Origin: an uncultured Bacteroidales bacterium
Lineage (GTDB): Bacteria; Bacteroidota; Bacteroidia; Bacteroidales; FEN-979
Length of the DNA: 56,575 nucleotides
Reading direction: 5' to 3'
Assembly (NCBI GenBank): GCA_903929315.1
Contig: CAIYUC010000178.1
Location: 1-56,575 of the forward strand
Position numbers and translations under genes: made by a program. The notes beneath the pieces are model-generated. The model was not told the origin of the DNA. It saw only the letters and a list, made by a program, of their open reading frames with translations, and made no database searches. Below, piece after piece: positions 9,698 through 51,992 of this stretch. Positions within the stretch are counted from its first letter, which is position 1. Each line of letters starts with the position of its first letter.

Positions 9698-9712
9698 CCA
9701 GGTGGCCCTGAA

Positions 9713-10555: not shown

Positions 10556-10569
10556 AGTATCTTTTTGGC

Positions 10570-10577: not shown

Positions 10578-10599
10578 GTTATAACTGAACAAAATTTTA

Positions 10600-10607
10600 T
10601 ACTTTTG
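10600..10607 (+). promoter_or_regulatory. -7 box for the 10634 methyltransferase
   Basis: TACTTTTG fits TAnnTTTG, 26 bases before the start codon. It lies back to back with the nfo box on the other strand, so the two genes share a compact divergent promoter. Confidence 0.45.
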
Positions 10608-10633
10608 TTTGACTCCAAACGGACATCTTTTTA

Positions 10634-11524
10634 ATGAAAAATACCCTTTCCCCCTTTTTTAATCCTGTCCAACTTATAGGAGCTTATATTTACCATAAAA
10701 AATCTCCAAAATATAATAAAACAGCCAATGACCTTGAGTTAAAGCTCTATTCTGAAATATTACATAATGATATGCTTCATTTTGGATATTTTGATGATAT
10801 TGAAATATCTCCTGAATATATATCCATTGGCCGGCTTGAAAACGCTCAAAAAAGACATGCAGAAATTATTGTTGAACAGATCATAGACAAAAATTCTCCT
10901 GTATTGGATGTGGGATGTGGAATGGGAGGGCTATCCAATTATCTTCTTAAACATGGTTTTAATATCGAAGCATTGACTCCCGATAATAACCAAATGCAAT
11001 ACATTCGACGGGTATATAAGGATTTACCTTGTCATTATTGCAAATTCGAAGAGTTAAAGACACAAAAAAAGTTTGGTACGGTCATTAATTCCGAATCTCT
11101 TCAGTACATCTCCATCGATGAAGCGTTTAAAAAAGCAGAAAGCATTATTCTTCCGCATGGAAGATGGATCATAACCGATTGTTTCCGGACGAATGAAGAG
11201 TCGTGCAACGGGTCAGGACATGTGCTGATCCAGTTTTTGAACAAAATAAAAGAACATGGCTGGACCATCTGCTATCAGCGCGATATTACCATGCATATTT
11301 TACCTATGCTGAAACTTATTTACATGTATGTTGACAGGTTTCTCATCCCTTTGTCGCATTACGCTGACGAGAAATTAAAATACAAAAAAGCATGGCTCTA
11401 TTATTTAACGGAAAATCTCAGGAAATCGATCGCCGAAAAATCCAAAAAGGAGATTTGTGCAATCAATCCCGAGGTATTTCTTGCGGAGAAGAAATATATG
11501 ATTTTCGTACTCCAGAAACAATGA
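10634..11524 (+). CDS. Class I SAM-dependent methyltransferase, small-molecule type
   Basis: 296 residues. Motif I is clear (PVLDVGCGMGGLSNYLLKHG, about residues 95-114), followed by an acidic-type motif II region (IEALTPDNNQMQYI) and SESLQYISIDEAFKKAESIILPHGRWIITD, as in the cyclopropane-synthase/UbiE-like branch. It should transfer a methyl group from SAM to a small molecule or lipid. The N-terminal ~85 residues are helical and family-specific. The stop codon lies inside the first GAGCAATG repeat at 11521, so this repeat may have reshaped the 3' end. The substrate cannot be told. Confidence 0.8.
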   Translation: MKNTLSPFFNPVQLIGAYIYHKKSPKYNKTANDLELKLYSEILHNDMLHFGYFDDIEISPEYISIGRLENAQKRHAEIIVEQIIDKNSPVLDVGCGMGGLSNYLLKHGFNIEALTPDNNQMQYIRRVYKDLPCHYCKFEELKTQKKFGTVINSESLQYISIDEAFKKAESIILPHGRWIITDCFRTNEESCNGSGHVLIQFLNKIKEHGWTICYQRDITMHILPMLKLIYMYVDRFLIPLSHYADEKLKYKKAWLYYLTENLRKSIAEKSKKEICAINPEVFLAEKKYMIFVLQKQ

Positions 11525-11590
11525 GCAATGAAGATTGAGCAATGAGCAATATATTGTCAATTGTCAATTCTTCATTCTTCATTGCTCATT
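11521..11590. repeat. GAGCAATGAAGA palindromic repeat B, copy 1
   Basis: Left arm ATGAGCAATGAAGATTGAGC, centre with TTGTCAATTGTCAATT, right arm TTCATTCTTCATTGCTCATT. It lies between convergent genes and overlaps the stop codon of the methyltransferase. Related copies are at 14467-14540 and 14968-15054, and part of one lies in a coding frame at 11819-11863. Confidence 0.85.
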
Positions 11591-11618
11591 ACTATTCCTA
11601 GGAACTATAAGAGATTTG

Positions 11619-14432: not shown

Positions 14433-14466
14433 GATCAGACATTAAGATTCAAAGTTATGGATAATT

Positions 14467-14540
14467 AATGAGCAATGAAGAATGACCAATTGTCAATTGG
14501 ACAATATATTGCTCATTGCTCACTCTTCATTGCTCATTGC
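14467..14540. repeat. Palindromic repeat B, copy 2
   Basis: AATGAGCAATGAAGAATGAC, then CAATTGTCAATTGGACAATA and a right arm of GCTCATTGCTCACTCTTCAT plus TGCTCATTGC. It lies in the divergent space between the restriction-modification gene and the four-helix-bundle gene. Confidence 0.85.
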
Positions 14541-14543
14541 TTA

Positions 14544-14575
14544 TGTATTACCTTTTCAAAAAAAGCCGATTAATG
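14544..14575 (+). repeat. TGTATTACCTTTTCAA repeat E, copy 1
   Basis: TGTATTACCTTTTCAA, five variable bases, then GCCGATTAATG. The same two blocks with the same five-base gap occur at 53051-53082. The copy here is followed by ATTAATCTGATCGGC, so the element can form a further hairpin. Confidence 0.7.
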
Positions 14576-14599
14576 ATAAACTAATTAATCTGATCGGCA

Positions 14600-14959
14600 A
14601 TGAAAGAAAATGTGATAAAAGAGAAGTCTTTTCAGTTCTCAATAAAAATTGTTTTCCTGACAAGACAATTAAAGGAGAAGAGGACCGAGGCAGCTCTGGT
14701 TAATCAGCTTCTCAAAAGCGGTACGTCAATAGGAGCTAATGTAGAAGAAGCCTGCGCTGGGATCTCTAAAGCAGAATTTTCAATGAAAATATCTATATCC
14801 TATAAAGAAGCTAAAGAAACTCTATACTGGCTTAATGTATTGAAGAATACAAATACTATATCCCTGGAAGAGTACACCTCACTTTATAAAGATTGTGATG
14901 AGATATTAAGGATTCTGTGGGCTATCCTGAAAACAACCAGGATGAGTGGGAAGAAGTGA
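14600..14959 (+). CDS. Four-helix-bundle protein (S23 / 23S-rRNA-IVS type)
   Basis: 119 residues of four amphipathic helices with the family signature LLKSGTSIGANVEEA (about residues 40-54) and the terminal CDEILRILWAILKT. Family members were first found in intervening sequences of 23S rRNA genes, but in Bacteroidota they are common as stray genes. The crystal structures are pentameric bundles; the function is unknown. No rRNA is near. The gene is bracketed by two copies of palindromic repeat B, at 14467 and 14968, so the repeats and the gene may move or be amplified together. Confidence 0.88.
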   Translation: MKENVIKEKSFQFSIKIVFLTRQLKEKRTEAALVNQLLKSGTSIGANVEEACAGISKAEFSMKISISYKEAKETLYWLNVLKNTNTISLEEYTSLYKDCDEILRILWAILKTTRMSGKK

Positions 14960-14967
14960 ACAACAAG

Positions 14968-15054
14968 AATGAGCAATGAGGAATGAGCAATCGGCAATTG
15001 ACAATATTGCTCATCTTTTATTGCTCATTGCTCATTCTTCATTGCTCATTGCTC
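14968..15054. repeat. Palindromic repeat B, copy 3
   Basis: AATGAGCAATGAGGAATGAG with CAATCGGCAATTGACAATAT and a right arm built of TTGCTCATTGCTCATTCTTC units. It ends four bases before the 3' end of tRNA-Cys, so it may affect processing or termination of that tRNA. Confidence 0.85.
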
Positions 15055-15058
15055 CGGG

Positions 15059-15129
15059 AGGTATCGAGCGGAGTCGAACCGCTGTACGAGGTTTTGCAGA
15101 CCTCTGCCTGACCACTCGGCCACGATACC
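15059..15129 (-). tRNA. tRNA-Cys (GCA)
   Basis: The minus strand folds to a full cloverleaf of 71 bases: acceptor GGTATCG/CGATACC, D arm GGCCGAGTGGTCAGGC, anticodon stem-loop GGTCTGCAAAACC with anticodon GCA, T arm GCGGTTCGACTCCGC, and discriminator U. No CCA is encoded. Cys identity is firm from the anticodon and the U73 discriminator. It lies just upstream of a copy of repeat B (in its own direction, downstream). Confidence 0.97.
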
Positions 15130-15159
15130 ATAATTGGGAGGGCAAAGATAGAAAAAAAT

Positions 15160-15510
15160 TTATTGGGATAACATACAAGCCACCTGGTGAACCTTGCCTC
15201 CAAGTGGCGGGTTTATCTTCGCGATCCTGACCTTTGCAGATATGACATGAGGGAAGGATGAACGAACTTTGTCCAGGATCCTGTAAGCGACATGTTCAAG
15301 TAAGTGTGATTTCTGTTCCATTACAGTTTTTACAGTCTTATAAACTTCCTGATAGTTTACCGTATCATGCAACAGATCGGATTTTTCCGCAGCAGAGGTA
15401 TCAAACTCAAGTTCGAGATCGACGTTGAACATCGTTCCGATGATCTGTTCTTCTTTTAAATGGCCATGGTAAGCAAAAAACTCCATTCCTTCAAGCAAAA
15501 TCTTTCCCAT
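15160..15510 (-). CDS. folB: Dihydroneopterin aldolase
   Basis: 116 residues, normal for FolB. It splits 7,8-dihydroneopterin to 6-hydroxymethyl-dihydropterin and glycolaldehyde in folate synthesis. Key blocks: GMEFFAYHGHLKEEQIIG with the active-site Glu, DTVNYQEVYKTV, HLLEHVAYRILDKV, and VRIAKINPPLGGKVHQVA with the catalytic Lys. Other folate genes are not close. The frame is followed by tRNA-Cys in the same direction and both may share a transcript. Confidence 0.95.
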   Translation of the reverse strand: MGKILLEGMEFFAYHGHLKEEQIIGTMFNVDLELEFDTSAAEKSDLLHDTVNYQEVYKTVKTVMEQKSHLLEHVAYRILDKVRSSFPHVISAKVRIAKINPPLGGKVHQVACMLSQ

Positions 15511-15579
15511 AAGAAATTGTATTTAAAAAGACTAAATTATCAATTTTAGCTGAATAAACGCTGCCTTGTGCAATTTTCG

Positions 15580-15587
15580 TAAGTTTG
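15580..15587 (+). promoter_or_regulatory. -7 box for glnS
   Basis: TAAGTTTG fits TAnnTTTG, 40 bases before the glnS start codon. The leader that follows contains a GACGCAAA-type repeat. A -33 box at normal spacing is not visible. Confidence 0.45.
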
Positions 15588-15603
15588 TGCCATTGAAAAA
15601 TAC

Positions 15604-15627
15604 ACCGCAAAGACGCAAAGACGCAAA
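15604..15627. repeat. Short GACGCAAA tandem in the glnS leader
   Basis: ACCGCAAAGACGCAAAGACG followed by CAAA just before the glnS ATG: three short CGCAAA units. It covers the place where a ribosome-binding site would lie. Confidence 0.55.
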
Positions 15628-17310
15628 ATGGAAGAGAAAACAGCAAAGTCGTTAAATTTCATAGAGGAAATTATTGAAGAAGACTTGAAAAACCAGGTCT
15701 ATGACGGAAGAGTTCATACGCGGTTTCCGCCTGAGCCCAATGGTTATCTCCATATCGGTCATGCAAAATCGATCTGCCTGAATTTCGGGATAGCAAAAAA
15801 ATACAACGGAATGACCAACCTGCGATTCGACGATACCAATCCTGTGAAAGAAGATGTGGAATATGTCGATTCGATCAAGGAAGATATCAGGTGGCTCGGA
15901 TTTGACTGGGAAGACAGGCTTTTCTATGCTTCCGATTATTTTAACGAACTTTATAATTATGCCCTGATCCTGATAAGAAAAGGAAAAGCATATGTGTGCG
16001 ACATGACTGCGGATGAGATCAGCGAGACACGCGGTACACTTAGCCGGCCTGGGAAAGAAAGTCCATACCGGAATCGCCCGGTCGAAGAAAACCTCGATCT
16101 GTTCACCCGTATGCGTAACGGTGAATTCCCGGATGGATCCAGTGTATTAAGAGCAAAGATCGACATGGCATCGCCCAACATGCAAATGCGTGACCCGGTC
16201 CTCTACCGTATCCTTCATACATCCCATCACAGGACCGGGGATCAGTGGTGCATTTATCCCATGTACGATTTTGCCCACGGACAGTCCGATTCCATTGAGC
16301 GTATTACGCATTCGATCTGCACGCTTGAATTTGAGGTTCACCGGCCATTGTATGACTGGCTTATCCGTGAGATCGGGATCTATGCTCCCCGGCAAATCGA
16401 ATTTGCCCGTTTGAACCTGAGTTATACCGTCATGAGCAAACGCAAGTTATTGGAACTTGTGCAGGAAGGAAAGGTAACCGGGTGGGATGATCCGCGAATG
16501 CCTACGATTTGCGGTTTACGTCGCAGAGGCTATACTCCGGAAGCCATCCGGAATTTTGCCGATATTATCGGGGTGGCAAAAAGGGATAATGTGATCGATG
16601 TGAGCCTTCTTGAATTCTGTATCCGGGAAGATCTCAACAAAAGGTCCAACAGGGTTATGGCGGTGATAAATCCATTGAAAGTCATACTGGATAATTATCC
16701 GGAAGACCTGACCGAAGAAATGGAAGCAATAAATAATCCTGAAGATGAATCCCGCGGTAAAAGAAAAGTCCCGTTTTCACGTGAACTTTATATTGAGAAA
16801 GAGGACTTTATGGAGATCCCGTCCCAAAAGTATTTCCGGCTTTCCCCCGGTAAAGAAGTGCGTTTGCGGTCAGCTTATATCATAAAATGTGAAAGCTTTG
16901 TAAAAGATCCTTCCACCGGAGAGATAACAGAAATTCATTGCACATATGATCCGAAAACCCGAAGCGGAATGCCGGAAAGTAATCGCAAAGTGAAGGGTAC
17001 GCTTCACTGGTTATCAGTAAAACATGCGATTAAAGCGGAGATCCGGCTTTATGACCGGTTGTTTATGAAAGAAAATCCGGATGAGGCAGTTGAGGGGAAA
17101 GACTACAAAGATTTTCTCAACCCCGATTCGTTAAAAGTGATAACAGGACAAATCGAACCTTCCATTCTGAGGGCAAATCCCGGTGACAAATTTCAATTCG
17201 AGAGGATCGGATATTTTTGTGTTGACAAGGATTCTGCAGGGAATAACCTGATCTTTAACCGTACGGTAACGTTAAAGGATTCCTGGGTGAAAATCGGAAA
17301 AAATCAATAA
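15628..17310 (+). CDS. glnS: Glutaminyl-tRNA synthetase
   Basis: 560 residues. This class I synthetase charges tRNA-Gln directly. The HIGH motif is in [19 protein letters not shown] (about residues 34-52), and the KMSKS-equivalent is VMSKRKL (~268). The blocks [21 protein letters not shown] and [32 protein letters not shown] match GlnRS rather than GluRS. The C-terminal beta-barrel anticodon domain is complete ([21 protein letters not shown]). It is followed within 50 bases by tRNA-Gln(CUG), so the enzyme and its substrate RNA lie together. Presence of GlnRS suggests the indirect GatCAB route is not needed. Confidence 0.97.
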
Positions 17311-41888: not shown

Positions 41889-42362
41889 ATGGATATAAAA
41901 AAGTTTATGCTGTTTTTCGTGATCCTGGCAATATTTCTTATCGCCGGGTGTCAGAAAAACAAAGATTATGTATTGTATTATCCATTTAAGCAACATTTCT
42001 GGTCCAGGTTCAATAAACTGCAATTTGAGATCCCACTTCAACCTTCAGCTAAAGGATGGGACATCTATTTCTTTGCACATCATACGAAAAATTACCCGTT
42101 TGATAATTTGGATTTTAATATGATCATGAATTCACCATCGGGAGAAGAAAGGATCAAAGAATATCACTTTGAGATCAAACGGAAAAACGGAGAATTTGCA
42201 GGAGAGTGCACGAAAGATTCATGTCTTGCAACCATTGCACTTAAAAAGGAGATCTACTTTCCTGAGAAGGGAATTCTTAAGATTGAAATTGAAAATCTCG
42301 TACCCCGGTTGGAAGTACAGGGTTTACTGGGGGTGGGAATCAGGATGCATCCCCGTGGATAA
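41889..42362 (+). CDS. gldH: Gliding motility lipoprotein GldH
   Basis: 157 residues from ATG 41889; a longer frame from 41787 lies in the kinase gene. The N-terminus MDIKKFMLFFVILAIFLIAGC is a lipoprotein signal with the lipobox LIAGC. WDIYFFAHHTKNYPFDNL and the C-terminal VQGLLGVGIRMHP fit GldH. In gliding bacteria GldH is an essential lipoprotein of the gliding/type IX system. It follows the NtrY-like kinase directly and its 3' end overlaps the convergent ribF fragment by 39 bases. Confidence 0.85.
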   Translation: MDIKKFMLFFVILAIFLIAGCQKNKDYVLYYPFKQHFWSRFNKLQFEIPLQPSAKGWDIYFFAHHTKNYPFDNLDFNMIMNSPSGEERIKEYHFEIKRKNGEFAGECTKDSCLATIALKKEIYFPEKGILKIEIENLVPRLEVQGLLGVGIRMHPRG

Positions 42363-42806
42363 TATTTCGGCGACCTGGATTTTATCTCTTGCTATTTGTT
42401 CTTTTAATTCACCCAGGGTATTAAATTTTTTCTCATCCCGGATCCGGTCAATAAAATGAACTACTAATTCTTGTCCGTAAATTTCACGATCAAATTCGAA
42501 AATATTCACCTCTACTGTTAATTCATGCTGATCCAGCGTGGGACGGATCCCAATGTTTGCCATTCCCTTATAAGTAATTTTATCCAGCGTTACTTTTACT
42601 GCATAAATACCATTTGCAAGGAACAAAGGAGATTGTTGATGCAGTTTCAGGTTCGCAGTAGGGTAACCCAGGACCCTGCCTAATTGCTGACCCTTTATGA
42701 CAATCCCACGGAGAGAATAAGTATCCCGGAGAAAAGCATTTGCCTGCCGTATATTTCCATCGGCCAAAGCTTTTCTCACTTTAACAGGGATTTTACTATT
42801 TCTCAT
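42324..42806 (-). CDS. ribF: Riboflavin kinase domain, N-terminally shortened RibF
   Basis: 160 residues, half the normal ~310. The riboflavin-kinase domain is whole: GIVIKGQQLGRVLGYPTANL with the ATP/flavin block, YKGMANIGIRPTLDQHELTVEVNIFEFDREIYGQ and VHFIDRIRDEKKFNTLGELKEQIARD. The linker before it (KVRKALADGNIRQANAFL) is kept. The FMN adenylyltransferase domain with GxxDGxHxGH is absent, and only 37 bases separate the start from the next gene, so it was lost. The product should still make FMN, if expressed, but not FAD. It may be a functional monofunctional kinase or a decaying gene; a full ribF may exist elsewhere. Confidence 0.85.
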   Translation of the reverse strand: MRNSKIPVKVRKALADGNIRQANAFLRDTYSLRGIVIKGQQLGRVLGYPTANLKLHQQSPLFLANGIYAVKVTLDKITYKGMANIGIRPTLDQHELTVEVNIFEFDREIYGQELVVHFIDRIRDEKKFNTLGELKEQIARDKIQVAEILSTGMHPDSHPQ

Positions 42807-42843: not shown

Positions 42844-43737
42844 TCAGAATAAATCTTTCTTCCTTGCAAATTTGATCTTGATCAATTGGCTCACTGCATA
42901 CAGATAATGGGCCCACACTCCGGTAAGCATAATGATAAGCGTTACGATCATCCAGATCGGAGCTATTGGAGTCCATAATTCTCTCGTTGGTTTTTCCGCA
43001 AGGTAATATTGTTTTGGAATTCCCCATGTAATGGAAGATTGACCCTGCACATTCCCAAAGGTATCGTTCTCTTCGATCTTTGCAATGACCGTTATATTTC
43101 CCAATGAGTCCCCGATCAAATTTTCGGGACAATCGATACGTCCTTCGCCATTGTCGTCAAGGGCAATTTCTCCTATTTTAAGGAGATTGAACAACCGGGG
43201 AATATAAACAATGACCTTTTCTTTTGTAACAGGTTTTATTTCGCCAGTGCTCTCAAACTGGTTCGCATTTACTTTGATAAACCTTAAAGAGTCTTCTTTC
43301 GAAAAATTGACGGTGATCTTAGCAAGCTTTGCAGTGATACTTTCAGCTGATGAAAGATATTTTCCTTTCCTGTTAAATTTTACCAAATAAACGGTCTTTC
43401 CATCTTTATCGCAGGGCAATCCGGATTTGACATGCACTTTGAGTACTGCATTGCCCTGATCATCTGTTTTTGTTTCTCCCAGCAGTTTGATTTCTTTACC
43501 GGCAGTTGCTGTAAATTCGATCTCCGCATTCTGAAGGGCAAATGGTCCCTGGTCTCTGCTAACAAACAGATTGGCAGTAAGAACGACCGTATCGTTGGAA
43601 GTGTTCAGGTAAAGCAAAGAGATTTTGGTATTAATATCTGCCAGTGAATCCTTTTGTTCCTGCGAAAAAACCTTTATCTGAAAACAATCCAGGATGACTA
43701 AAAGGAGGAAACAAGAAACTTTTTGAAAACCTTTCAT
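42844..43737 (-). CDS. Membrane-anchored periplasmic protein of the cytochrome cluster
   Basis: 297 residues with a signal peptide (FLLLVILDCFQIKVFSQ). Residues ~30-250 look like two or three Ig-like beta sandwiches (VVLTANLFVSRDQGPFALQN, GEIALDDNGEGRIDCPENL). A C-terminal TM (IWMIVTLIIMLTGVWAHYLYAVSQLI, ~262-287) leaves a short basic tail (KFARKKDLF). No heme or Fe-S motif is present. Placed last in the redox unit after the NrfD-like gene, it may be a scaffold or assembly subunit of the complex. The family is not recognised. Confidence 0.7.
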   Translation of the reverse strand: MKGFQKVSCFLLLVILDCFQIKVFSQEQKDSLADINTKISLLYLNTSNDTVVLTANLFVSRDQGPFALQNAEIEFTATAGKEIKLLGETKTDDQGNAVLKVHVKSGLPCDKDGKTVYLVKFNRKGKYLSSAESITAKLAKITVNFSKEDSLRFIKVNANQFESTGEIKPVTKEKVIVYIPRLFNLLKIGEIALDDNGEGRIDCPENLIGDSLGNITVIAKIEENDTFGNVQGQSSITWGIPKQYYLAEKPTRELWTPIAPIWMIVTLIIMLTGVWAHYLYAVSQLIKIKFARKKDLF

Positions 43738-43774
43738 AGAATATGATTGAATCCCTGAATATGAAAAATAATTT

Positions 43775-45121
43775 TTATAATAATGATTCTTCTGTTAAAA
43801 ACGGTCCTTCAGTCTTATCCGTGCCAGGAACATCTGCCATTTCAGACACGTTCATGACCGGGATGAATTTAGAAGCTAAGGTATAAAGAAGGCAGAATAA
43901 AGCTACTCCAGCCGCTGTCAGGGAATACTCCACCCAGGTTGCTGAATAATTGAGCCATTCAGGACGTGAATCCTGGATTGGGAGATAAGGTGATTCTAAT
44001 GTCGGGATGACGATCAGGTAACGGTTAAACCAAAGCGCCACGATCACGATCAAGGCTGAAATTGTGATGCTCGTAATGGACCTTAATTTTGGGATACCCA
44101 CCACGATCAACGGAATCAAAACACCAATATAGTTGGAAAAAATGAACGGCCAATAATATTGTGAAAAGAGGATCTTAATCAAACTTTCATCATTCTTTTC
44201 CGATCCGTACCATTTGGTCAGGTAATCGCTAAAAGTAAAGTACCCGAACAGAGCAGCCAGGACTACCATTAACACACCCATTGCAACAAAATGTTTTCTT
44301 GTGATGTACTGTTGAAGGTGATATACTTTGCGGAATACCCACATTGCAATGATAAGGACGCCGGTACCTGAATAGATGGCGGCAATAACGAAATAAGGCC
44401 CGAAAATGGTACTGTGCCAGCCGGGTTGTAAAGTGACGCTGAAGATCCATGCCAACACGGAATACACAATGATGGCTATGGCGATAACCATGGCTGCCAT
44501 AATATCTGTTGCACGTTTCAACCGTTTTTCCTGTTCAGGCGTACCTTCATAACCCAGAGCAAGAATCGAATAGATTTTTTTCCTCCACCGTGGAAGGTTC
44601 AACTCTTTAAAATCCCTCAGGTTAGCGATATCCCGGAGTGTTGAAAGATAAAGGAATATCAAACATCCAAAGATATCGGTCGATATTGCAATCACATCCC
44701 AGGTGATAGGGGATTGAATTCTGCCGAATAGTGCCAGGTAATACAACCGGTCCAACCGGCCGATACATAATAATATATAACCAGGACCAATCAGCAATGA
44801 AATAATTGCAAGGTATTCGGCAAGCCTGATAATGGGTTTTCTCCATTCCGTCCGGAACAATTGTAAAGTACCTGAGATAATAGCTCCTGCATAGCTCATC
44901 CCCATAAAAAAAATAAAATTGACAATATAGATACCCCACACTACATTATCTCTCATCCCTGTTACTATGTGACCTTTCGTTACCTGGGTAATAAAAGCAA
45001 ATATACCGAGACCGATAATGCTTAACAGAAAAAGGATCCAGGCCAATGCTGCAGGGGTTGTTCTTTCAAGATGCGGTGCAACTTCTTTTAATAGATTATC
45101 CCGGATTGTTTTATTTTCCAT
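43775..45121 (-). CDS. NrfD/PsrC-like quinone-interacting membrane subunit
   Basis: 448 residues with ten or so TMs (for example LAWILFLLSIIGLGIFAFI, VVWGIYIVNFIFFMGMSYAG, FSNYIGVLIPLIVVGIPKL). GHIVTGMRDNVVWGIYIVNFIFFMGMSYAGAIISGTLQLF.TEWRKPIIRLAE matches the ActC/PsrC branch of the NrfD family, which takes electrons from quinol or gives them to quinone without heme. It forms a membrane module with the ferredoxin gene just before it (gap of 2 bases). It lacks a Mo-enzyme partner in the window. The family call is firm, the direction of electron flow is not. Confidence 0.9.
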   Translation of the reverse strand: MENKTIRDNLLKEVAPHLERTTPAALAWILFLLSIIGLGIFAFITQVTKGHIVTGMRDNVVWGIYIVNFIFFMGMSYAGAIISGTLQLFRTEWRKPIIRLAEYLAIISLLIGPGYILLCIGRLDRLYYLALFGRIQSPITWDVIAISTDIFGCLIFLYLSTLRDIANLRDFKELNLPRWRKKIYSILALGYEGTPEQEKRLKRATDIMAAMVIAIAIIVYSVLAWIFSVTLQPGWHSTIFGPYFVIAAIYSGTGVLIIAMWVFRKVYHLQQYITRKHFVAMGVLMVVLAALFGYFTFSDYLTKWYGSEKNDESLIKILFSQYYWPFIFSNYIGVLIPLIVVGIPKLRSITSITISALIVIVALWFNRYLIVIPTLESPYLPIQDSRPEWLNYSATWVEYSLTAAGVALFCLLYTLASKFIPVMNVSEMADVPGTDKTEGPFLTEESLL

Positions 45122-45123
45122 TG

Positions 45124-46086
45124 TTATAATTTATGGGTTTTACTATATGGCGTATTTTCGTACCTGTTCTTTACGTTTTTATCGAGGCCATTGAATCCTT
45201 TGTCAACAGGGAACTGACGTTCAACAGGTGGGAGATAATAAACACTGGGGCGGGTCCCCAGCGTTTCCAGGTACCTGTATCCGGCACGGTCACGGATCAA
45301 TTCGCTAAACCTAAGGGTTTCTGCACCATTGGTGACAGAATCTTCGTCAATGTCCCCAAAATAAATGACCCCCATCGGGCAATTTTGTGCACAATAAGGC
45401 AACTTGCCAATGCGGACAAGATCGGGACAAAAGTCGCATTTGGATACAGTTCCTTCTTTCCCGGGACTACTTGCTTCCGGAGAATAAGGCTGTTTGTCCC
45501 CTTCAAATTCAGGATACTTCTTCCATGCAAAAACACGCGTTGAATAGGGACAACCGGTCATACAAAACTTGCAACCAATGCACCGTTCATTGTCGATCAG
45601 CACAATACCATCGCTTCTTTTATAGGTAGCTCCGACGGGACAAACGCTGACACAAAGAGGATTATCACAATGGAAACAAGGTTTAGGGAACCAATATGGA
45701 GCTGATTTCTCCGAATCCTGTAAAAGGTAAACTTTCATGAATTCCTGACTTTTTGGAAGGAAGTGACCCTTCTGGCAGGATTCAACGCATTTCCGTGCAT
45801 TTTTACATTTTGCAAGGTCAATCACCATAACGAACTTCCGGCCGGGAATACCTTTGTGGGATTCCTTGATGGAGACCCGGGGTGTATGGATATGTGCTTT
45901 ATCAACCTCAATAATTTCACCATGCGTAGTAAGAGCTTTGACCTTCTCGCCTGATTCAAGCCTGGATTTGTCGATATAAGCCGCAATTAGTTTGCTACCT
46001 GTAACGACACCGACACCGGCGATCAAACTTTTTTTCAAAAACTCCCGGCGGGATTTCTTTTGCTTGTCTTTGTCCTTTTCTTCCAC
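45124..46086 (-). CDS. Tat-exported 4Fe-4S ferredoxin subunit
   Basis: 320 residues. A twin-arginine signal (KKSRREFLKKSLIAGVGVVTG) points to folded export. Four Cys-rich groups bind up to four [4Fe-4S] clusters: CKNARKCVESCQKG, CFHCDNPLCVSVCPVGA, CIGCKFCMTGCPYS and CDFCPDLVRIGKLPYCAQNCP. The order is that of the electron-transfer subunits of the PsrB/NrfC/HybA group. It works with the NrfD-like subunit next to it to move electrons between quinone and the periplasmic cytochromes. Confidence 0.93.
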   Translation of the reverse strand: MEEKDKDKQKKSRREFLKKSLIAGVGVVTGSKLIAAYIDKSRLESGEKVKALTTHGEIIEVDKAHIHTPRVSIKESHKGIPGRKFVMVIDLAKCKNARKCVESCQKGHFLPKSQEFMKVYLLQDSEKSAPYWFPKPCFHCDNPLCVSVCPVGATYKRSDGIVLIDNERCIGCKFCMTGCPYSTRVFAWKKYPEFEGDKQPYSPEASSPGKEGTVSKCDFCPDLVRIGKLPYCAQNCPMGVIYFGDIDEDSVTNGAETLRFSELIRDRAGYRYLETLGTRPSVYYLPPVERQFPVDKGFNGLDKNVKNRYENTPYSKTHKL

Positions 46087-46131
46087 TTTTACAACATTGA
46101 ATTAGTTTGATAGGTAATGTACTTTAGATAA

Positions 46132-46755
46132 TTAATGAACTTCATGATAGCCATTGATCATACCTTTGAAGTTACTTAAGGGAGTCTTACCAATGGTACA
46201 GAAATAGATATGTATGAACATAAAAACGGATATTAAAAAGCCAATGAATATGTGAAAAAGATCGGTCAGATGAAGTCCGCTTACACCTAAAAATTTCACA
46301 GGGATAAAAACGTCCGGGTACATCATGGACCAGCCTGTAATAATAATCAGGGGTACCAGGATGTACATGATTCCGATATAAGAAAACTGTTGTAAAGGAT
46401 TGAATTTTATCTCCATACTGACAGGGAAGGGAACAGGATCATTTCTGAAAATCCCTCTGGTATAATATGTAAACTGGGATTTAAGTCTTGAATACAAACC
46501 AGGGAAGGCCATCTTATAATATTTTCCGTTCCCGGAAAGAAGATTTCCCACAAAAAAAATGAAATAACTGACTGTCAGAAGGATTCCGAAAATATTATGG
46601 ATGGTTACTGCAACATCAAACCGGATCATAGGATATTTTGGATTAGAAAATTGCATGCTAATACCAGTAATGATCAACAAAAGACAAAAAGCAGCATTAC
46701 AAAGATGCCAGATCCTGATATAAATTGGGTATAAATAAATTTTTTCTTCAGCCAT
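46132..46755 (-). CDS. Membrane b-type cytochrome (cytochrome b561/FdhC-like)
   Basis: 207 residues with four TMs (LWHLCNAAFCLLLIITGISMQF region, IHNIFGILLTVSYFIFFVGNLL, FSYIGIMYILVPLIIITGWSM, LFHIFIGFLISVFMFIHIYF). His residues in IRIWHLC, VTIHNIFG, LTDLFHIFIGF and FMFIHIYF are placed to bind two b hemes, as in the cytochrome b of Ni-Fe hydrogenase and thiosulfate reductase. It should pass electrons between quinone and the periplasmic heptaheme cytochrome encoded just before it (gap 11 bases). Confidence 0.88.
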   Translation of the reverse strand: MAEEKIYLYPIYIRIWHLCNAAFCLLLIITGISMQFSNPKYPMIRFDVAVTIHNIFGILLTVSYFIFFVGNLLSGNGKYYKMAFPGLYSRLKSQFTYYTRGIFRNDPVPFPVSMEIKFNPLQQFSYIGIMYILVPLIIITGWSMMYPDVFIPVKFLGVSGLHLTDLFHIFIGFLISVFMFIHIYFCTIGKTPLSNFKGMINGYHEVH

Positions 46756-46766
46756 ATTTCTACCGG

Positions 46767-47792
46767 TTATTTTATCATCCTCAGGAATGCGTGTACCAGG
46801 ATTCCGATTACAACAGATATAACAATGATTATACTCAGAACATTCAGATAATAATTCCTGTTGGCTCCGATCACATATTTATCATTGACGATGGAACCCT
46901 TGATAAAACCCCTGGTGCTACGGATTTCTTTCACTTCATAACGGTATAGAGTCGCCAGCAGGATGGAGTTTGTTGAATGACATTCCTGACATTTCTTAAC
47001 GGCCTGTTGTTTTGGTAAAATCTCGTGTGCGACGAGGGTGCTATCCTTAGTTGATTTTTTTGTATGGCATTCAATGCACCGAACCGATATAAAATGCAGT
47101 TTTTGATTCGGCAGCCAGTCATGTTTTGTGATCAGGTTCGGGTTTTCTTTATCCGTTAACAATTGGTAATTTAAACTGTCAGCATGGCAATTAAGGCAAA
47201 TCGCATTGTCATAAGAAATCGTGTGCTTTATATTTTCACTTGGACGAGCGGTGATCTTATAAAAATGTCCATTATGACATTTCCAGCAGGTAAAATTTCC
47301 ACCCAGTCTTTTTACATGGACACTTCCATTAAATTCCGCCTCAATATTTTCGAAATGGTATTTGGCGTATTTGGGATCACCTCCGTGACAGTCAAGGCAA
47401 TTAGGCATAGCCTGCATCATCAGGTTCCCGGCATGGGGAAATGTCATGTAATCTTCCGAATGACAGTCGATGCATTTGAATTCACGGTGATTGGATACAT
47501 AAAAGAGGTCTCGCCGGATGATAAGTTCTGAATACATTTTCTTTGTCATGGTCTTTCCGGATTCCTTGTTTTCGACATAGAATTTTGACTGACCGTGACA
47601 TTTCAGGCAAGTTTCATTTTCTGCAGCATGTTTAATGGTCGAGTAGAATGATGTATCCTTATTTTCTCTGGAAGGAGCAACCGATTCTGTTACTTTGACA
47701 TTGGTTGATTTGGCTAAAATAAAAATAATAGCGGAACATAGAATTATAATAAGTATGATCAGAAAGGGATTGACTTTTAATTTAATCTTCAT
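46767..47792 (-). CDS. Heptaheme membrane-anchored cytochrome c
   Basis: 341 residues with seven CxxCH motifs: CLKCH, CIDCH, CLDCH, CWKCH, CLNCH, CIECH and CQECH. It has an N-terminal TM (PFLIILIIILCSAIIFIL) and a C-terminal TM (LNVLSIIIVISVVIGILVHAFL), so the heme domain faces the periplasm with both ends fixed in the membrane. This is a quinol-linked multiheme type; it probably takes electrons from the b cytochrome and passes them on. The C-terminal anchor near a b cytochrome recalls the NrfH/NapC role, though the architecture differs. Confidence 0.88.
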   Translation of the reverse strand: MKIKLKVNPFLIILIIILCSAIIFILAKSTNVKVTESVAPSRENKDTSFYSTIKHAAENETCLKCHGQSKFYVENKESGKTMTKKMYSELIIRRDLFYVSNHREFKCIDCHSEDYMTFPHAGNLMMQAMPNCLDCHGGDPKYAKYHFENIEAEFNGSVHVKRLGGNFTCWKCHNGHFYKITARPSENIKHTISYDNAICLNCHADSLNYQLLTDKENPNLITKHDWLPNQKLHFISVRCIECHTKKSTKDSTLVAHEILPKQQAVKKCQECHSTNSILLATLYRYEVKEIRSTRGFIKGSIVNDKYVIGANRNYYLNVLSIIIVISVVIGILVHAFLRMIK

Positions 47793-47828
47793 ACGATCCG
47801 GTCGTAGTTGATTTATGGAAAAAGAAAA

Positions 47829-47859
47829 TGGGTGTTTATTTGATAATCATAAACACCCA
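47829..47859 (-). terminator. Hairpin terminator inside the redox gene set
   Basis: TGGGTGTTTAT (47829-47839) and ATAAACACCCA (47849-47859) form a perfect 11-bp stem with a 9-base loop. On the minus strand a T-rich tail follows. It lies between the monoheme and heptaheme genes and would reduce or stop read-through from the upstream genes, so the cluster may have two transcription units. Confidence 0.75.
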
Positions 47860-47881
47860 ATTTCATCAGGATTGGTTCATT

Positions 47882-48310
47882 TTACTTTTTGAAGGTACGC
47901 ATATAAGCGACAAGGTCCCAACGGTCTTTTGCATCAGGAATCTTCTTATCATAATTTGGCATTTCGTCTCTTCCGACGGAAGTCCTATGGAAGATTTCAC
48001 CATCGGTGAATGCCTGGAAGTCCTTGGAGCTAAAATCGCCCGGGTTTGTTTTCAGGGAAGCAGCTTTGGGTCCATCTCCCAGACCTTTGCTTCCATGGCA
48101 GGATTTGCAATGTTTTGCCCAGAGGTCTTTACCATTGCTTATGGCAGCCTGGTCACCTGCTTTAACAGGGCTCTTAATGGCCTTATCTTTATCGGGTACG
48201 GGCCAGGGCTTAGCTTTTGCCTGTTGGGCAGAAGCGTTGTTTCCCAACGTTAATACTACGGCAATTGCTGCAGTAATAACGAAAATGACAGCTTTTTTTG
48301 TTGTTTTCAT
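47882..48310 (-). CDS. Monoheme cytochrome c
   Basis: 142 residues with a signal peptide (KKAVIFVITAAIAVVLTLGNNASAQ). One CKSCH heme motif sits at ~68-72 and an axial Met is offered by GRDEMPNYDKKI. The core ISNGKDLWAKHCKSCHGSKGLGDGPKA is a class I cytochrome c. It is a soluble or loosely bound periplasmic carrier between the quinol-linked heptaheme protein and the outer-membrane parts of the cluster. Confidence 0.9.
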   Translation of the reverse strand: MKTTKKAVIFVITAAIAVVLTLGNNASAQQAKAKPWPVPDKDKAIKSPVKAGDQAAISNGKDLWAKHCKSCHGSKGLGDGPKAASLKTNPGDFSSKDFQAFTDGEIFHRTSVGRDEMPNYDKKIPDAKDRWDLVAYMRTFKK

Positions 48311-48355
48311 TTGTACATTATTTATAGTGGTTAAACATGTGTTACTCGTTGAAAA

Positions 48356-49258
48356 TTAAAAGCTCCACAACCGGGTTATATTGAATCCAAAAAGGATCCC
48401 TCCATTATAGGGATTGTTGTTATTATACATAACAGTTTCCTGTGGAACAAGTCCCTGGGCAGAGGTAATAAATATCTGGAAACAATGTGTGCTGGTTGAA
48501 ATTTCCACACCCAGTCCGAAATTCGGCCATGGAGTTGTGTTAAGATAAGTGAGTACCGGCTGAGAGTAACTTAAAATAATGGATGTCTGAGGTGTGACCT
48601 TAAGCCTTCCTATTCCGGAAATATTAATGTTATCATTCTTGAAGGAAGTGTTGTCATGGGTGTCCTTCATTGTAGAGTCGACGATGTTATAATGCACATA
48701 GGCTAACCCCAACTGTAATGAAATACGTTTACCAAACCTTCTGGCGAACATGATCTCATGGAAATAAGAAAACCTGTCAGTGGCTGTAAAATCTTTCCCA
48801 AAGGTCGATTTATTGGTACAATTGATATCAAAGTTCATATAATACGCGATAGTCAGTGGAAAGCCACCGTCCCGTTGCCGTGCAAAAGTGTATTTTAAGT
48901 CAAAGTTTTGAATTCTCTTGTTTTTCGTGGTTCCGATCCCAACCAGAAGATGATTTGTGATGCTGAAATTCAGTCCGAGATGGATATTGGAAGCGCCCCA
49001 GAGTCCTCCAAGGTCGGTCCACCCATTCTGAATGGTCCCAAAATCATGCTGAATGACGAATTCAAGACTTTTAGCGTGCGGAATTGTGACTGTTTGATCA
49101 GCAATGAAATAACCACTTTCAAAAGCTGGTTTGACCAGGTGTTTTCTTTCTTTCTTCCCGGAAATGGAATCCTGACCCATTGTTATACCAATGCATGTAA
49201 TTGTGAATAACAAGCTGAGGAGAACATTTTTTGTGATCTTTATGGTAGATTTATGCAT
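48356..49258 (-). CDS. Outer-membrane beta-barrel protein, DUF5777-like
   Basis: 300 residues with a signal peptide (NVLLSLLFTITCIGITMG). The barrel strands alternate small and aromatic residues and end in TRLWSF, with a C-terminal Phe as in many outer-membrane proteins. SLEFVIQHDFGTIQNGWTDLGGLWGASNIHLGLNFSITNHLLVGIG is typical of the DUF5777 group, which in Bacteroidota is often found beside cytochromes. It may be a porin for the redox path, but no contact is proven. Confidence 0.8.
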   Translation of the reverse strand: MHKSTIKITKNVLLSLLFTITCIGITMGQDSISGKKERKHLVKPAFESGYFIADQTVTIPHAKSLEFVIQHDFGTIQNGWTDLGGLWGASNIHLGLNFSITNHLLVGIGTTKNKRIQNFDLKYTFARQRDGGFPLTIAYYMNFDINCTNKSTFGKDFTATDRFSYFHEIMFARRFGKRISLQLGLAYVHYNIVDSTMKDTHDNTSFKNDNINISGIGRLKVTPQTSIILSYSQPVLTYLNTTPWPNFGLGVEISTSTHCFQIFITSAQGLVPQETVMYNNNNPYNGGILFGFNITRLWSF

Positions 49259-49284
49259 ATCCTTAAAAATTAAAGAGTGAATAT

Positions 49285-49662
49285 TTAATCGTTTTTAGCT
49301 CCCTGCTTGATCCAGTTCAGGATAACCTGTTGATCTGAAAAATTTGGCAAATGCGAATTCATGGCTCCGCTGGAAATAACAACGGTATATATCGGACTTT
49401 GCTGAGGGGTCCCTGTATTTACATAACCGCCTGAGATGAGACTGTTATAAGCATTACCGGCGCTAAGGTCAGGTGGGATACCACCCGTAACATGACAACC
49501 GCTTAGAGCACAATTACTTGTAAACAAGGTCAGAACATCTTTCGAAAAACTTACAGGCCCGGTTGATGCTGAAGGATATACTATTGTTTTGGAGGTACAG
49601 GCCGAGAGGAAGACCAATCCCAAAAGAACCGATCCTATTTTTTTCAGTTTATTGTTTTGCAT
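49285..49662 (-). CDS. Lipoprotein with a CX4CH heme-type motif
   Basis: 125 residues. The signal ends in the lipobox FLSAC. One heme-type motif, CALSGCH, has four residues between the two Cys in place of the usual two. The rest (GGIPPDLSAGNAYNSLISGGYVNTG..PQQSPIYTVV, SDQQVILNWIKQGAKND) looks like small planctomycete-type cytochrome domains. It would be a lipid-anchored heme protein near the hexaheme lipoprotein. Confidence 0.75.
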   Translation of the reverse strand: MQNNKLKKIGSVLLGLVFLSACTSKTIVYPSASTGPVSFSKDVLTLFTSNCALSGCHVTGGIPPDLSAGNAYNSLISGGYVNTGTPQQSPIYTVVISSGAMNSHLPNFSDQQVILNWIKQGAKND

Positions 49663-49776
49663 AATGCGGAAATTTAATTTTGAAAGATAAGATAAATTAT
49701 TTTGCTGGCAATTATTTGTTGAAAAAAACTATTCAACTACTTTTTATACGTTCCTGGGGTATGATTAAGAAATTGT

Positions 49777-49811
49777 AAAAAAAGGCTTCAGGTTCACTGA
49801 AGCCTTTTTTT
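49777..49811. terminator. Strong bidirectional terminator
   Basis: GGCTTCAG (49784-49791) pairs with CTGAAGCC (49797-49804) over a 5-base loop, flanked by seven A on the left and seven T on the right. It lies just downstream of the hexaheme lipoprotein gene (minus strand) and would limit read-through to the small lipoprotein. Confidence 0.85.
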
Positions 49812-49824
49812 ACAAGAGTAATAA

Positions 49825-50889
49825 TTAAAGGCCTTTGCCAGAAAAACCATTAATACTGGCATTTAGTAAGTCGTGAGTATATTGATAATTGTGTACTCCC
49901 ATACTGCGATCCGCATCAATCAGGAAATAATTCCAGATAATTGCCAATTGCCGTTCAGTAAATTTCCTTGTTTTTTTACCTTTCATGTTTATTACATCAT
50001 TAACGGTATCGATTATGGTGGCAGTGGCCAATGCTACTTTTAACTGCTGATACATCCCCTTAATTTCAGTCTGTTTTGAATCAATATCAAAGGAAGTCGG
50101 ATTGTTCGTGTGGCAGTCAGCGCTCTGGCAGACTTTTACATTGTCACCGGTTTCACTACTCGTTACCCATAAGCTATGTCCGCCAACCACATTACCCTGG
50201 GCGTAACCGCCATGGCATGTCATGCAGGCAGCTTTATCCCTGTGAGGAGAGTTGCCATACGGAGCACCAGCGATAACGAACGCACCTTTACCACCCAATA
50301 TTAATGATTGTGGTCCATGATGGGGTCCCCAACGGTTACTGGTAATGGTTAATGAGTCTGTCCCATCAGGATTGGTCACCCATGGACTGGCAGGTCTGGC
50401 CTGGTGACATCTTCCGCAAAGATTTGCGGTGCCCTTCAACACACCATCTCCGCCTTGCAGATCCATCGTGATCGTGTGATCCATCCTTAAAGTATAAGAA
50501 GCTGTCGTCCTAATAGCCCAGTCAGTGGAAGTATATGTTTCATGTATCTGATGGCAGGTCCGGCAATTAATTGGAGCTGCATCCGTAATACCAACAGCCG
50601 TAGTATCAGCACCAGTTTTAAGACATTCCTCGAAGCCCTGGCTTGAATGGCAGGGTGCGCATGCATTACGGGTAGCTTCCGTTAAAGTACTGCCGGATGC
50701 ATGTTTTGAAGCATCATATTGGAAAATCTTAGCAACAACAGCATCATCAAAGGTGTGACACTGATTACATGTAGCGTTTTGATCCTTACCTGCCGGCCCC
50801 GTATCCCCCTTTTTTGTGCAGCTTGCCAGGAAATTACTCATAGCGATCATCATCCCCATGGCAAATAATAAAAGCATAAACTTTTTCAT
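49825..50889 (-). CDS. Hexaheme lipoprotein cytochrome c
   Basis: 354 residues. The signal ends in the lipobox LASC (residue ~24), so the protein is lipid-anchored. Heme motifs in order: CNQCH, CAPCH, CRTCH, CGRCH, CMTCH and CQSADCH, the last with four residues between the Cys. Between the motifs are His residues that can be distal ligands (IHETYTS, RMDHTITMD, NRWGPHHGPQ). It fits an outer-membrane, perhaps surface-facing, cytochrome. First structural gene of the set, with an FNR-type site ~190 bases upstream. Confidence 0.85.
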   Translation of the reverse strand: MKKFMLLLFAMGMMIAMSNFLASCTKKGDTGPAGKDQNATCNQCHTFDDAVVAKIFQYDASKHASGSTLTEATRNACAPCHSSQGFEECLKTGADTTAVGITDAAPINCRTCHQIHETYTSTDWAIRTTASYTLRMDHTITMDLQGGDGVLKGTANLCGRCHQARPASPWVTNPDGTDSLTITSNRWGPHHGPQSLILGGKGAFVIAGAPYGNSPHRDKAACMTCHGGYAQGNVVGGHSLWVTSSETGDNVKVCQSADCHTNNPTSFDIDSKQTEIKGMYQQLKVALATATIIDTVNDVINMKGKKTRKFTERQLAIIWNYFLIDADRSMGVHNYQYTHDLLNASINGFSGKGL

Positions 50890-50970
50890 GTTATTTTTGT
50901 TTGGTTAGTAATTGCTTTATATAGGATTAGATAATATATTAACAACAGTAGTTACTTTTCTAACAAGCAA

Positions 50971-50978
50971 CAAATGTA
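50971..50978 (-). promoter_or_regulatory. -7 box for the hexaheme gene
   Basis: On the minus strand TACATTTG fits TAnnTTTG, 82 bases before the start codon of the hexaheme lipoprotein gene. The FNR-type site lies about 100 bases upstream of it. Confidence 0.45.
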
Positions 50979-51076
50979 TTTATTTATATACTCCATTTTA
51001 CAATTCCAAAAATGAGATTTAGGGTTATCTTGACTGATATTAAATACATCAAATCGAAACATCCGTCAATGAAATG

Positions 51077-51090
51077 TTGATATATATCAG
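51077..51090. promoter_or_regulatory. FNR-type binding site upstream of the cytochrome genes
   Basis: TTGATATATATCAG matches the FNR consensus TTGATN4ATCAA in nine of ten positions. It lies between the FNR-like gene and the hexaheme gene. Confidence 0.65.
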
Positions 51091-51180
51091 TTCCTATGTT
51101 AAAGAGGAGAAAAAAACAGTGAAATTTTTGAGCGACAAATGATAATACAAATACTCAGGAACCGGAAAAAGGAGGATTCA

Positions 51181-51879
51181 TCACCCGGTTTCACTGATTT
51201 TCTTGAGCTGTGCCGGATTTAAAATGTGGACATTATTGCCTTCCACAGTGAGAATGCCTTCTTCCTTAAATTCTTTTAAAATGCGGATCGCGCTTTCTTT
51301 TGACATTCCGGAGATATCCGCAAGATCCTGCCTGCTGATCGTCATATCGAAGGGATTCTTGCAATAGATAACATCGGAAAGATAAAAAAGGGCATCGGCT
51401 ATTCTGCCATGCATCTGTTTTTGTGTAAGACTGACGAACTGATCGAAATTAAAAATAGACTGGAGGCTCACTCGTTTAATGAATTCTTCAGCAAAATCAG
51501 GATTCTCCCGGATCAAATGTTTGTAAGTATTCACATCGACCATGCAGGCACTTGAATCTTCAACTGCAGCTGCAGAATAATGATGACGGTTATCAACATA
51601 TACACCGGGGCCGAAAATATATTCTACTGGTTTTACCAGTCCGAGGATAAGGTTTTTTCCGTAACCTTCAATATAGAGTTTAGCAAGACCTTTCGTGATA
51701 CAAAGGAAATGAGGGGAAGGAGTGCCTTGCTTGAACATGATCTCACCTGCCTTAAAATTGACTTCAAACCTGTTCTGGTTGATCAGTTCGAGCTCTGCAT
51801 CTGTCAGTTTTTTAAATATTATTGATTTGCAATTACAATCAATACAATTTAAAGAATGACTAAACTTCGTCATATTCAA
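51181..51879 (-). CDS. FNR-like transcription regulator
   Basis: 232 residues of the Crp/Fnr family. The N-terminus has Cys12, Cys15 and Cys17 (NCIDCNCKS); Cys60 and Cys112 are further on, so an oxygen-sensing Fe-S cluster as in FNR (C20, C23, C29, C122) is plausible though the spacing is closer. The cyclic-nucleotide-like domain is ~25-150 (FKAGEIMFKQGTPSPHFLCITKGLAKLYI). The C-terminal HTH carries ISRQDLADISGMSKESAIRIL; the Glu and Arg in KESAIR match the FNR residues that read TTGAT. It is likely to control the cytochrome cluster and itself. Confidence 0.88.
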   Translation of the reverse strand: MNMTKFSHSLNCIDCNCKSIIFKKLTDAELELINQNRFEVNFKAGEIMFKQGTPSPHFLCITKGLAKLYIEGYGKNLILGLVKPVEYIFGPGVYVDNRHHYSAAAVEDSSACMVDVNTYKHLIRENPDFAEEFIKRVSLQSIFNFDQFVSLTQKQMHGRIADALFYLSDVIYCKNPFDMTISRQDLADISGMSKESAIRILKEFKEEGILTVEGNNVHILNPAQLKKISETG

Positions 51880-51978: not shown

Positions 51979-51992
51979 CTGATAAATATCAA
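51979..51992. promoter_or_regulatory. FNR-type binding site upstream of the regulator
   Basis: CTGATAAATATCAA; read on the minus strand TTGATATTTATCAG, nine of ten matches to TTGATN4ATCAA. It sits in the asd-regulator spacer, 100 bases before the regulator's start codon. Confidence 0.65.

Follow-up and report, generated by a model that had tools for sequence, protein, structure and literature searches.

The window analyzed here, 56,575 nucleotides of contig CAIYUC010000178.1 from an uncultured Bacteroidales bacterium, carries on its minus strand a row of ten genes at 42844-51879, and an eleventh lies beyond it. In the order of transcription, the row encodes a Crp/Fnr-type regulator, a hexaheme lipoprotein, a monoheme lipoprotein, a DUF5777 barrel, a monoheme cytochrome c, a heptaheme cytochrome, a cytochrome b, a twin-arginine translocation (Tat) iron-sulfur protein, an NrfD-family protein, a 297-residue protein and finally a riboflavin kinase. 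We propose, with a probability of about 0.5, that these genes specify an FNR-type-controlled, quinol-oxidizing chain that would carry electrons outward from the inner to the outer membrane, with a terminal reductase similar to OcwA at its far end. A first-pass annotation of this DNA had already arranged the parts from the quinol pool through the periplasm to the outer membrane, and this line-up is well supported by the anatomy and conservation of the row. It had counted nine genes; their strand and coordinates hold, and the count becomes ten with the 297-residue protein, which had been omitted. Overall, its observation was partly confirmed and its interpretation partly supported.

In the putative mechanism, the cytochrome b/heptaheme pair would oxidize quinol, presumably from the menaquinol pool, in the manner of CbcL or CbcBA. 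In this genome, a cut-down iron-sulfur-NrfD unit of the ActC/ActB type, together with the 297-residue protein as its periplasmic partner, may provide a second route of quinol oxidation. Electrons would then pass to the periplasmic monoheme cytochrome and on to the monoheme lipoprotein, which would be held against the outer-membrane barrel, the 12-strand DUF5777 protein. The hexaheme lipoprotein, probably located at the cell surface, would serve as the terminal reductase, and its acceptors might be humics, flavins, metal oxides or small oxidants. The dedicated riboflavin kinase may provide flavin mononucleotide (FMN) as a cofactor or shuttle.

The hexaheme lipoprotein as a candidate terminal reductase

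The hexaheme gene (49825-50889) encodes five CXXCH motifs and one CX4CH motif, all six ending in CH, and a lipobox cysteine followed by a glycine-rich, collagen-like stretch; this lipobox and glycine-rich stretch are the only sequence clues to a surface location. Its motifs, profiles and model place it among OcwA/6qvm/NrfA-superfamily cytochromes. When a profile of 30 aligned sequences was compared with solved structures, the best matches were OcwA (6i5b, E-value 2.4e-15) and 6qvm (9.2e-13), followed by octaheme nitrite reductase and NrfA (approximately 5e-11), and Pfam gave a weak match to PF02335 (1.3e-4). The AlphaFold2 model (predicted local distance difference test score, pLDDT, 83.4) returned 6i5b in the first two Foldseek rows, the sole rows below an E-value of 0.001. 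VIA gave Z-scores of 14.2 for 6qvm and 14.0 for 6i5b (root-mean-square deviation 3.5, 223 residues aligned) and of 13 to 13.7 for NrfA chains, which is a tie by the rule of that tool.

A hidden Markov model alignment placed hemes 2-6 of the hexaheme protein onto hemes 5-9 of OcwA and H190/H191 onto the His-His motif over the open heme 5 of OcwA, with the numbering offset as we read it (PMC6703420; here and below, citations refer to the excerpts available of each source). H190 is present in 30/30 sequences, and position 191 is His in 21/30 and Tyr in 9/30. Heme 2 (C77-H81) is therefore predicted to be open under the invariant His190. According to the same alignment and to the NrfA ligands as we take them to be, H63, H116, H216, H238 and H333 would provide the distal ligation for the five remaining hemes. 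A protein with bis-His ligation throughout, suggested by six conserved non-motif histidines, was considered and rejected, because the alignment assigns H190 to the active-site motif and leaves one heme predicted to be open. The CXXCK motif and active-site Tyr of NrfA are not kept: the hexaheme protein has CXXCH throughout, and R165 occupies (in 29/30 sequences) the H+3 position of heme 4, which we take to be the place of that Tyr. In NrfA, the catalytic heme is Lys-ligated via CXXCK (PMC6703420). No second above-cut-off match to the NrfA family was found in this genome, which is 98.5% complete and consists of 244 contigs.

OcwA from Thermincola potens (6i5b) and 6qvm, an S-layer undecaheme cytochrome of Carboxydothermus ferrireducens, are described as surface end points of extracellular electron transfer (EET). 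OcwA has iron-reducing activity, and OmhA, an eleven-heme OcwA relative from C. ferrireducens, was among the proteins washed off biogenic magnetite (PMC7829351); from the organism and heme number we infer that OmhA is 6qvm. The hexaheme protein shares with both their fold, heme core and C-terminal helices, and by the alignment it is predicted to have an open heme with a candidate His-His motif as well. Unlike them, it has six hemes rather than nine or eleven, is a lipoprotein in a diderm, and is 21-25% identical in sequence. With NrfA and the octaheme nitrite reductases it shares the superfamily fold, the C-terminal helices and the distal His pattern, judged against the presumed NrfA ligands; it differs from them in the missing CXXCK and the missing Tyr at its presumed place. 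On the basis of sequence and model, the hexaheme protein is a candidate catalytic subunit and likely an OcwA-like terminal reductase. The earlier description of the locus as lacking a catalytic subunit is thus doubtful, because this protein resembles OcwA, 6qvm and NrfA and has a predicted open heme. The further claim that neither a molybdopterin enzyme nor a known reductase is present stands in its first half, as none of the Pfam matches in the cluster is a molybdopterin catalytic subunit, and needs qualifying in its second, given the NrfA/OcwA superfamily placement. The two PF00384 (molybdopterin) proteins of this genome lie outside the cluster on C66 and C75, in surroundings that by eye look like NADH dehydrogenase/formate dehydrogenase genes.

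Inner-membrane modules

The assignments of a b cytochrome, a heptaheme cytochrome, a Tat ferredoxin and an NrfD-like subunit were all borne out. The b cytochrome (46132-46755; PF01292, 1.7e-23) has invariant His 17, 53, 168 and 182 in 22 aligned sequences, as expected of a diheme protein. The heptaheme cytochrome (46767-47792) has seven CXXCH motifs, a hydrophobic helix at each terminus and eight further His that are invariant in 24 aligned sequences, of which H334 sits in the C-terminal helix. The two proteins are fused in some relatives. Geobacter CbcL and CbcBA likewise combine a diheme-type b cytochrome with a periplasmic multiheme c part, sometimes fused, on the quinol side of EET, a likeness judged by composition. 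CbcL contains nine c hemes in addition to its two b hemes (PMC9129911), in contrast to the seven c hemes here. By analogy, the cytochrome b/heptaheme pair would work like CbcL or CbcBA (PMC9129911, PMC12307469, PMC10553843).

The iron-sulfur protein (45124-46086, 320 residues, Tat motif SRREFLK) is PsrB-like. Its profile matched PsrB and only the C-terminal part of ActB (for example, 6f0k_B 796-993 of 1039), and it contains 15 invariant Cys, with the first cluster motif short of one Cys in 22/22 aligned sequences. The NrfD-family membrane subunit (43775-45121; PF03916, 5.2e-33) is ActC-like: in the alignment search of solved structures, its profile matched ActC of alternative complex III (6f0k_C, 6.2e-84). 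The 297-residue protein (42844-43737) has a signal peptide and a C-terminal membrane helix and gave only weak matches in the sequence search of the Protein Data Bank (PDB). This genome has a second such cluster (L029, C107:14001-32511; 9423-16288), with genes for an iron-sulfur protein, NrfD, a 297-residue homologue, an iron-sulfur protein, an NrfD fused at its C-terminus to a 297-residue homologue, and a monoheme cytochrome c. This fusion indicates that the 297-residue protein is a partner of NrfD. No barrel or heptaheme gene was found in the stretch of the second cluster that was read.

The triad of iron-sulfur, NrfD and 297-residue proteins resembles alternative complex III (ActABCDEF) in its ActC-like NrfD and in an iron-sulfur protein similar to the C-terminal half of ActB. 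In contrast to that complex, the cluster lacks the molybdopterin-like half and a second NrfD (ActF), and the genome has no match to ActD (PF11821); judged from gene content, alternative complex III is incomplete here. The triad does not simply replace alternative complex III, since 6 of the 12 triad genomes have ActD and 6 do not. Iron-sulfur-NrfD pairs that lack a molybdopterin subunit and pass electrons to multihaem cytochromes have been described as Melioribacter NrfCD (PMC3534657), and NhcABCD of Desulfovibrio is an iron-sulfur-NrfD complex without a molybdopterin subunit (PMC8076601). Therefore, this part of the row is of a known kind. NhcABCD, DsrMKJOP and Melioribacter NrfCD all have an iron-sulfur/NrfD pair that trades electrons with multiheme c cytochromes; the present row differs from them by adding an outer-membrane barrel, lipoproteins and the 297-residue partner.

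The DUF5777 barrel and its putative heme partners

The outer-membrane barrel recognized in the first pass belongs to DUF5777 (PF19089; 48356-49258; Pfam E-value 2e-65), and its AlphaFold2 model has 12 strands (pLDDT 86.5, predicted TM-score 0.81). The top Foldseek rows of the model were FapF, OmpG, NanC and other barrels, and KdgM was also listed. MtrB was absent from the 50 Foldseek rows listed, which excludes nothing. A sequence search of the PDB found no relative of the barrel up to an E-value of 1, and we found no mention of DUF5777 in the literature searched. His71 and His258, both invariant in 43 sequences, seem to lie near the closing seam; we considered them as heme ligands in the barrel lumen and rejected this, because strand alternation, assessed by eye, seems to point both outward.

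The gene for the monoheme lipoprotein (49285-49662) immediately precedes that for the barrel in 42/43 relatives. The hexaheme and single-heme lipoproteins of the first pass are indeed both lipoproteins; the motif description required correction, as one of the six motifs in the former is CX4CH and the latter has CX4CH only, with no CXXCH. Among the relatives of the monoheme lipoprotein, the motif is CXXCH or CX4CH. The monoheme cytochrome c (47882-48310) has the single CXXCH expected of it, a signal-peptide-like N-terminus and Met117 in 36/36 aligned sequences, so that His/Met ligation of its heme is likely.

An outer-membrane barrel encoded beside a c cytochrome is a feature shared with MtrAB, OmbB/OmaB/OmcB and Cyc2. 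The arrangement is unlike the MtrAB type in that a predicted 12-strand barrel has a monoheme partner, whereas the MtrAB type has a large barrel enclosing a multiheme cytochrome; the strand number of MtrB is larger than 12. It is also unlike Cyc2, in which the monoheme domain and the barrel form one chain, whereas two genes are used here and in 42/43 relatives.

DUF5777 was found in 115/296 sampled Bacteroidota genomes. When 30 of these loci were inspected by eye (1.5 kb each way), 17 had a heme-motif protein of 110-135 residues within two genes, three of them on the opposite strand. In these loci (L194-L223), the barrels were often near small heme-motif proteins and proteins of about 180 residues judged by eye to resemble YceI; this could be a distinct outer-membrane redox system. 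In another arrangement (L035:14440-15777, L038:2053-3288 and L039:15204-16595; by Pfam in L035 and L038, by eye in L039), an EB_dh-domain lipoprotein with CX3CH adjoins the monoheme lipoprotein and barrel, and in L035 and L039 it occupies the expected position of the hexaheme gene.

Conservation and modularity

As the first pass had suggested, we looked for the gene set in other Bacteroidota, and the row recurs. In a sample of 295 genomes of the order (own genome included), the heptaheme protein was matched at an E-value of at most 0.001 in 68 genomes, 65 rows being at or below 2e-61 and three weak. From the 64 carriers other than this genome, 40 loci were taken (the remainder were excluded by rank or short contigs), with genes called by script and contig ends scored as absence. 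As the loci were chosen via the heptaheme protein, its gene is present in all of them by construction. Cytochrome b adjoins it in 40/40 loci (one fused), and the barrel was found in 37, the monoheme lipoprotein in 36, the monoheme cytochrome in 30, the hexaheme gene in 30 and the regulator in 29. A 480-520-residue six-heme protein, NapC-type by Pfam where tested, was found in 12/40 loci, and a 19-heme protein was found in 4/40. The triad was present in 12/40, which makes it an optional module.

A set from named genomes, the best 80 of 396 heptaheme relatives, which shares several contigs with the 40 loci above, gave these figures: cytochrome b 78, barrel 77, monoheme lipoprotein 73, monoheme cytochrome 68, hexaheme gene 58, regulator 58, iron-sulfur protein 50, NrfD 48, 297-residue protein 45 and riboflavin kinase 31. 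The titles of these 80 are Bacteroidota taxa, mostly Bacteroidales metagenome-assembled genomes (MAGs), some of which bear the names Labilibaculum, Marinifilum and Draconibacterium, with one Alphaproteobacteria title (L139), and the isolate names indicate lakes, fens, permafrost and similar sources. The layout of the L139 contig is the same as in Bacteroidales L134, and a mislabelled MAG is probable.

In the sample of 296 genomes from across the phylum, the heptaheme protein was matched in 12, few of them strongly, and the 297-residue protein in 7. The six of these other than the own genome have lipoprotein, barrel, iron-sulfur, NrfD, 297-residue and monoheme genes at the locus, and no heptaheme match was found in the stretches read of these six loci. 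This indicates that the system is built of modules. The idea of a new respiratory complex is accordingly only partly borne out, since the parts are separable and each like a known kind; what is new is the combination and the barrel/lipoprotein pair, and not each single part. A bolder version, namely a new Bacteroidales outer-membrane conduit with a split Cyc2-like monoheme lipoprotein/12-strand barrel, interchangeable quinol-oxidizing modules, an OcwA-type surface reductase and its own FMN supply, is put forward only tentatively.

Regulation and riboflavin kinase

The FNR-like regulator of the first pass is indeed of the Crp/Fnr type by family match (51181-51879; TTG start according to the open reading frame list). 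We scanned 250 bases upstream of the genes for at least 9/10 positions of TTGATN4ATCAA, which we take to be the FNR box consensus. In the window, two palindromes, to which no strand is assigned, each match 9/10 positions: CTGATAAATATCAA at 51979-51992, 5' of the regulator gene, and TTGATATATATCAG at 51077-51090, 5' of the hexaheme gene. Across the loci, such boxes precede the hexaheme gene in 17/30 cases (4.2% of shuffles) and the regulator gene in 17/31 (3.2% of shuffles), some of them lying in one shared divergent region, and other genes in 9/227.

The stand-alone riboflavin kinase gene (42324-42806; PF01687, 5.3e-41) starts 37 bases past the gene for the 297-residue protein on the same strand. 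PTAN, NxGxRPT and Glu E99, whose roles in riboflavin kinase we take as given, are conserved at at least 95% of 32 sequences. One further PF01687 frame is present in the genome (318 residues, C196). In 31 of the best 80 loci, the kinase closes the row on the same strand: it follows the 297-residue protein in 21 (3-40 bases) and overlaps it in 2, and its predecessor is another heme gene in 3 (58-62 bases) and cytochrome b in 5 (18-277 bases). OcwA binds FMN strongly (PMC6703420).

Evidence against the outward chain and alternative explanations

Several findings weigh against the proposed chain to the outer membrane. The first concerns its end point: the hexaheme protein is 25% identical to OcwA over 223 residues, the TM-scores are 0.48/0.36, and NrfA chains are within 1 Z. 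A soluble acceptor is therefore possible. In such a case, the chain would lead to a soluble small oxidant, the hexaheme protein would be a periplasm-facing NrfA-like reductase of nitrite, hydroxylamine, nitric oxide or similar, and the DUF5777 protein would be an ordinary substrate porin. The hexaheme protein belongs to the NrfA superfamily and has a predicted open heme with an active-site His, OcwA too shows slow nitrite reduction and a reaction with hydroxylamine (PMC6703420), the porins NanC and KdgM are among the Foldseek rows of the barrel, and the FNR boxes are compatible with anaerobic or nitric oxide control. However, CXXCK and Tyr of NrfA are not kept (CXXCH, and Arg165 in 29/30 at the presumed Tyr place), the tie of the barrel to a heme lipoprotein in 42/43 relatives is odd for a plain porin, and surface EET cytochromes rank first among its solved relatives, if by a small margin. 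We consider a soluble oxidant somewhat unlikely.

The outward chain also leaves the outer-membrane crossing unexplained, because a 12-strand barrel appears too narrow to sheathe a multiheme wire. As for its control, there is little or no excess of FNR boxes elsewhere in the row (monoheme lipoprotein 5/36, heptaheme 3/40, cytochrome b 3/40, monoheme cytochrome 3/34, barrel 0/37), so that the evidence for FNR-type control is limited to the hexaheme and regulator genes. Moreover, classical [4Fe-4S] FNR has four conserved cluster cysteines, and the regulator does not have them: among 32 sequences, three are kept, namely Cys12 (31) and Cys15 (29) of a CxxC motif and Cys112 (31), with Cys60 in 21, Cys17 in 3 and Cys173 in 1. 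The riboflavin kinase, in turn, may be no more than the gene that comes next in a single syntenic clade; the downstream genes are alike in most of the 31 loci, which probably represent the arrangement of one clade rather than many independent cases.

The hexaheme gene, finally, has its own terminator-like hairpin (19 pairs, 49773-49815, minus strand, 3' of the gene) and does not always adjoin the rest of the row. The hairpin makes more than one transcript likely, and, as the gene is on the opposite strand in several relatives, it may form its own transcription unit. Terminator-like sites overall showed no excess (9 versus 8.7 in shuffles). This hairpin, and a triad that is present in just 12/40 loci and also elsewhere in the same genome, would be expected if unrelated redox operons stood side by side by chance; the same gene order in dozens of loci makes this highly improbable.

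The remaining objection comes from the genomes that carry the row. Contrary to our expectation that carriers would be without heme-copper oxidases, PF00115 was matched in 59/65 carriers versus 73/230 non-carriers (Fisher p 3e-18, with related genomes not independent), and the matches were over the family cut-off in 128/132 genomes with a match. The chain is thus not typical of organisms without an oxidase, which weighs against an exclusively anaerobic role, and usually occurs beside an enzyme of the heme-copper oxidase family. PF00115 also covers nitric oxide reductases. ActD was found in 32/65 carriers versus 16/230 non-carriers. Both enrichments would suit an inward or bidirectional path, in which the monoheme cytochrome and a cytochrome c oxidase would receive electrons from outer donors such as Fe(II) or partner cells, and the quinone-reactive modules could run either way. 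Reverse operation of CbcBA has been predicted in a syntroph (PMC10553843), and a monoheme protein with a barrel recalls Cyc2 of Fe(II) oxidizers (PMC6344600). Nevertheless, PF00115 is not matched in this genome or in five other carriers, and reduction is suggested by the FNR-type boxes and the OcwA-type end point. The co-occurrence may also only mark respiring versus fermenting Bacteroidales, which the PF00115 contrast partly separates, in a family that includes nitric oxide reductases. We therefore regard the inward direction as improbable and retain the outward, OcwA-ended chain.

Published context and significance

Our literature search, made mostly at listing level, turned up no description of the cluster. 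Putative porin-cytochrome genes without known homology (PMC6344600) and five CbcL/MtoC/MtrH homologues (PMC6295460) have been reported in Bacteroidetes, both known here by description only. Two bioanode communities counted Bacteroidetes among their abundant members (PMC8258643, PMC7399161), and one bioanode MAG has a cluster of six multiheme cytochromes with an unnamed barrel, known here by description only (PMC8258643). If the outward chain is correct, Bacteroidales would have a route, open to testing, by which electrons reach humics, metals or electrodes, an OcwA-like cytochrome would be placed in a diderm phylum, and DUF5777 would gain a likely role as a partner of heme lipoproteins. Under the conduit reading, these lake, fen and sediment bacteria would have a form of extracellular respiration that would go unnoticed in searches built on MtrB or OmbB. 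The gene set can be used as a marker in metagenome surveys.

Two related arrangements were noted in addition. C34 of this genome encodes a 496-residue six-heme protein (L192:6661-8151) like the NapC-type one in the clusters of many relatives; the stretch read around it contains no further heme gene. In another branch of the phylum (L033:8318-14057), and with no NrfD match, genes for a hexaheme homologue, a Rieske protein, a monoheme c, a 13-heme protein and a cytochrome b stand together.

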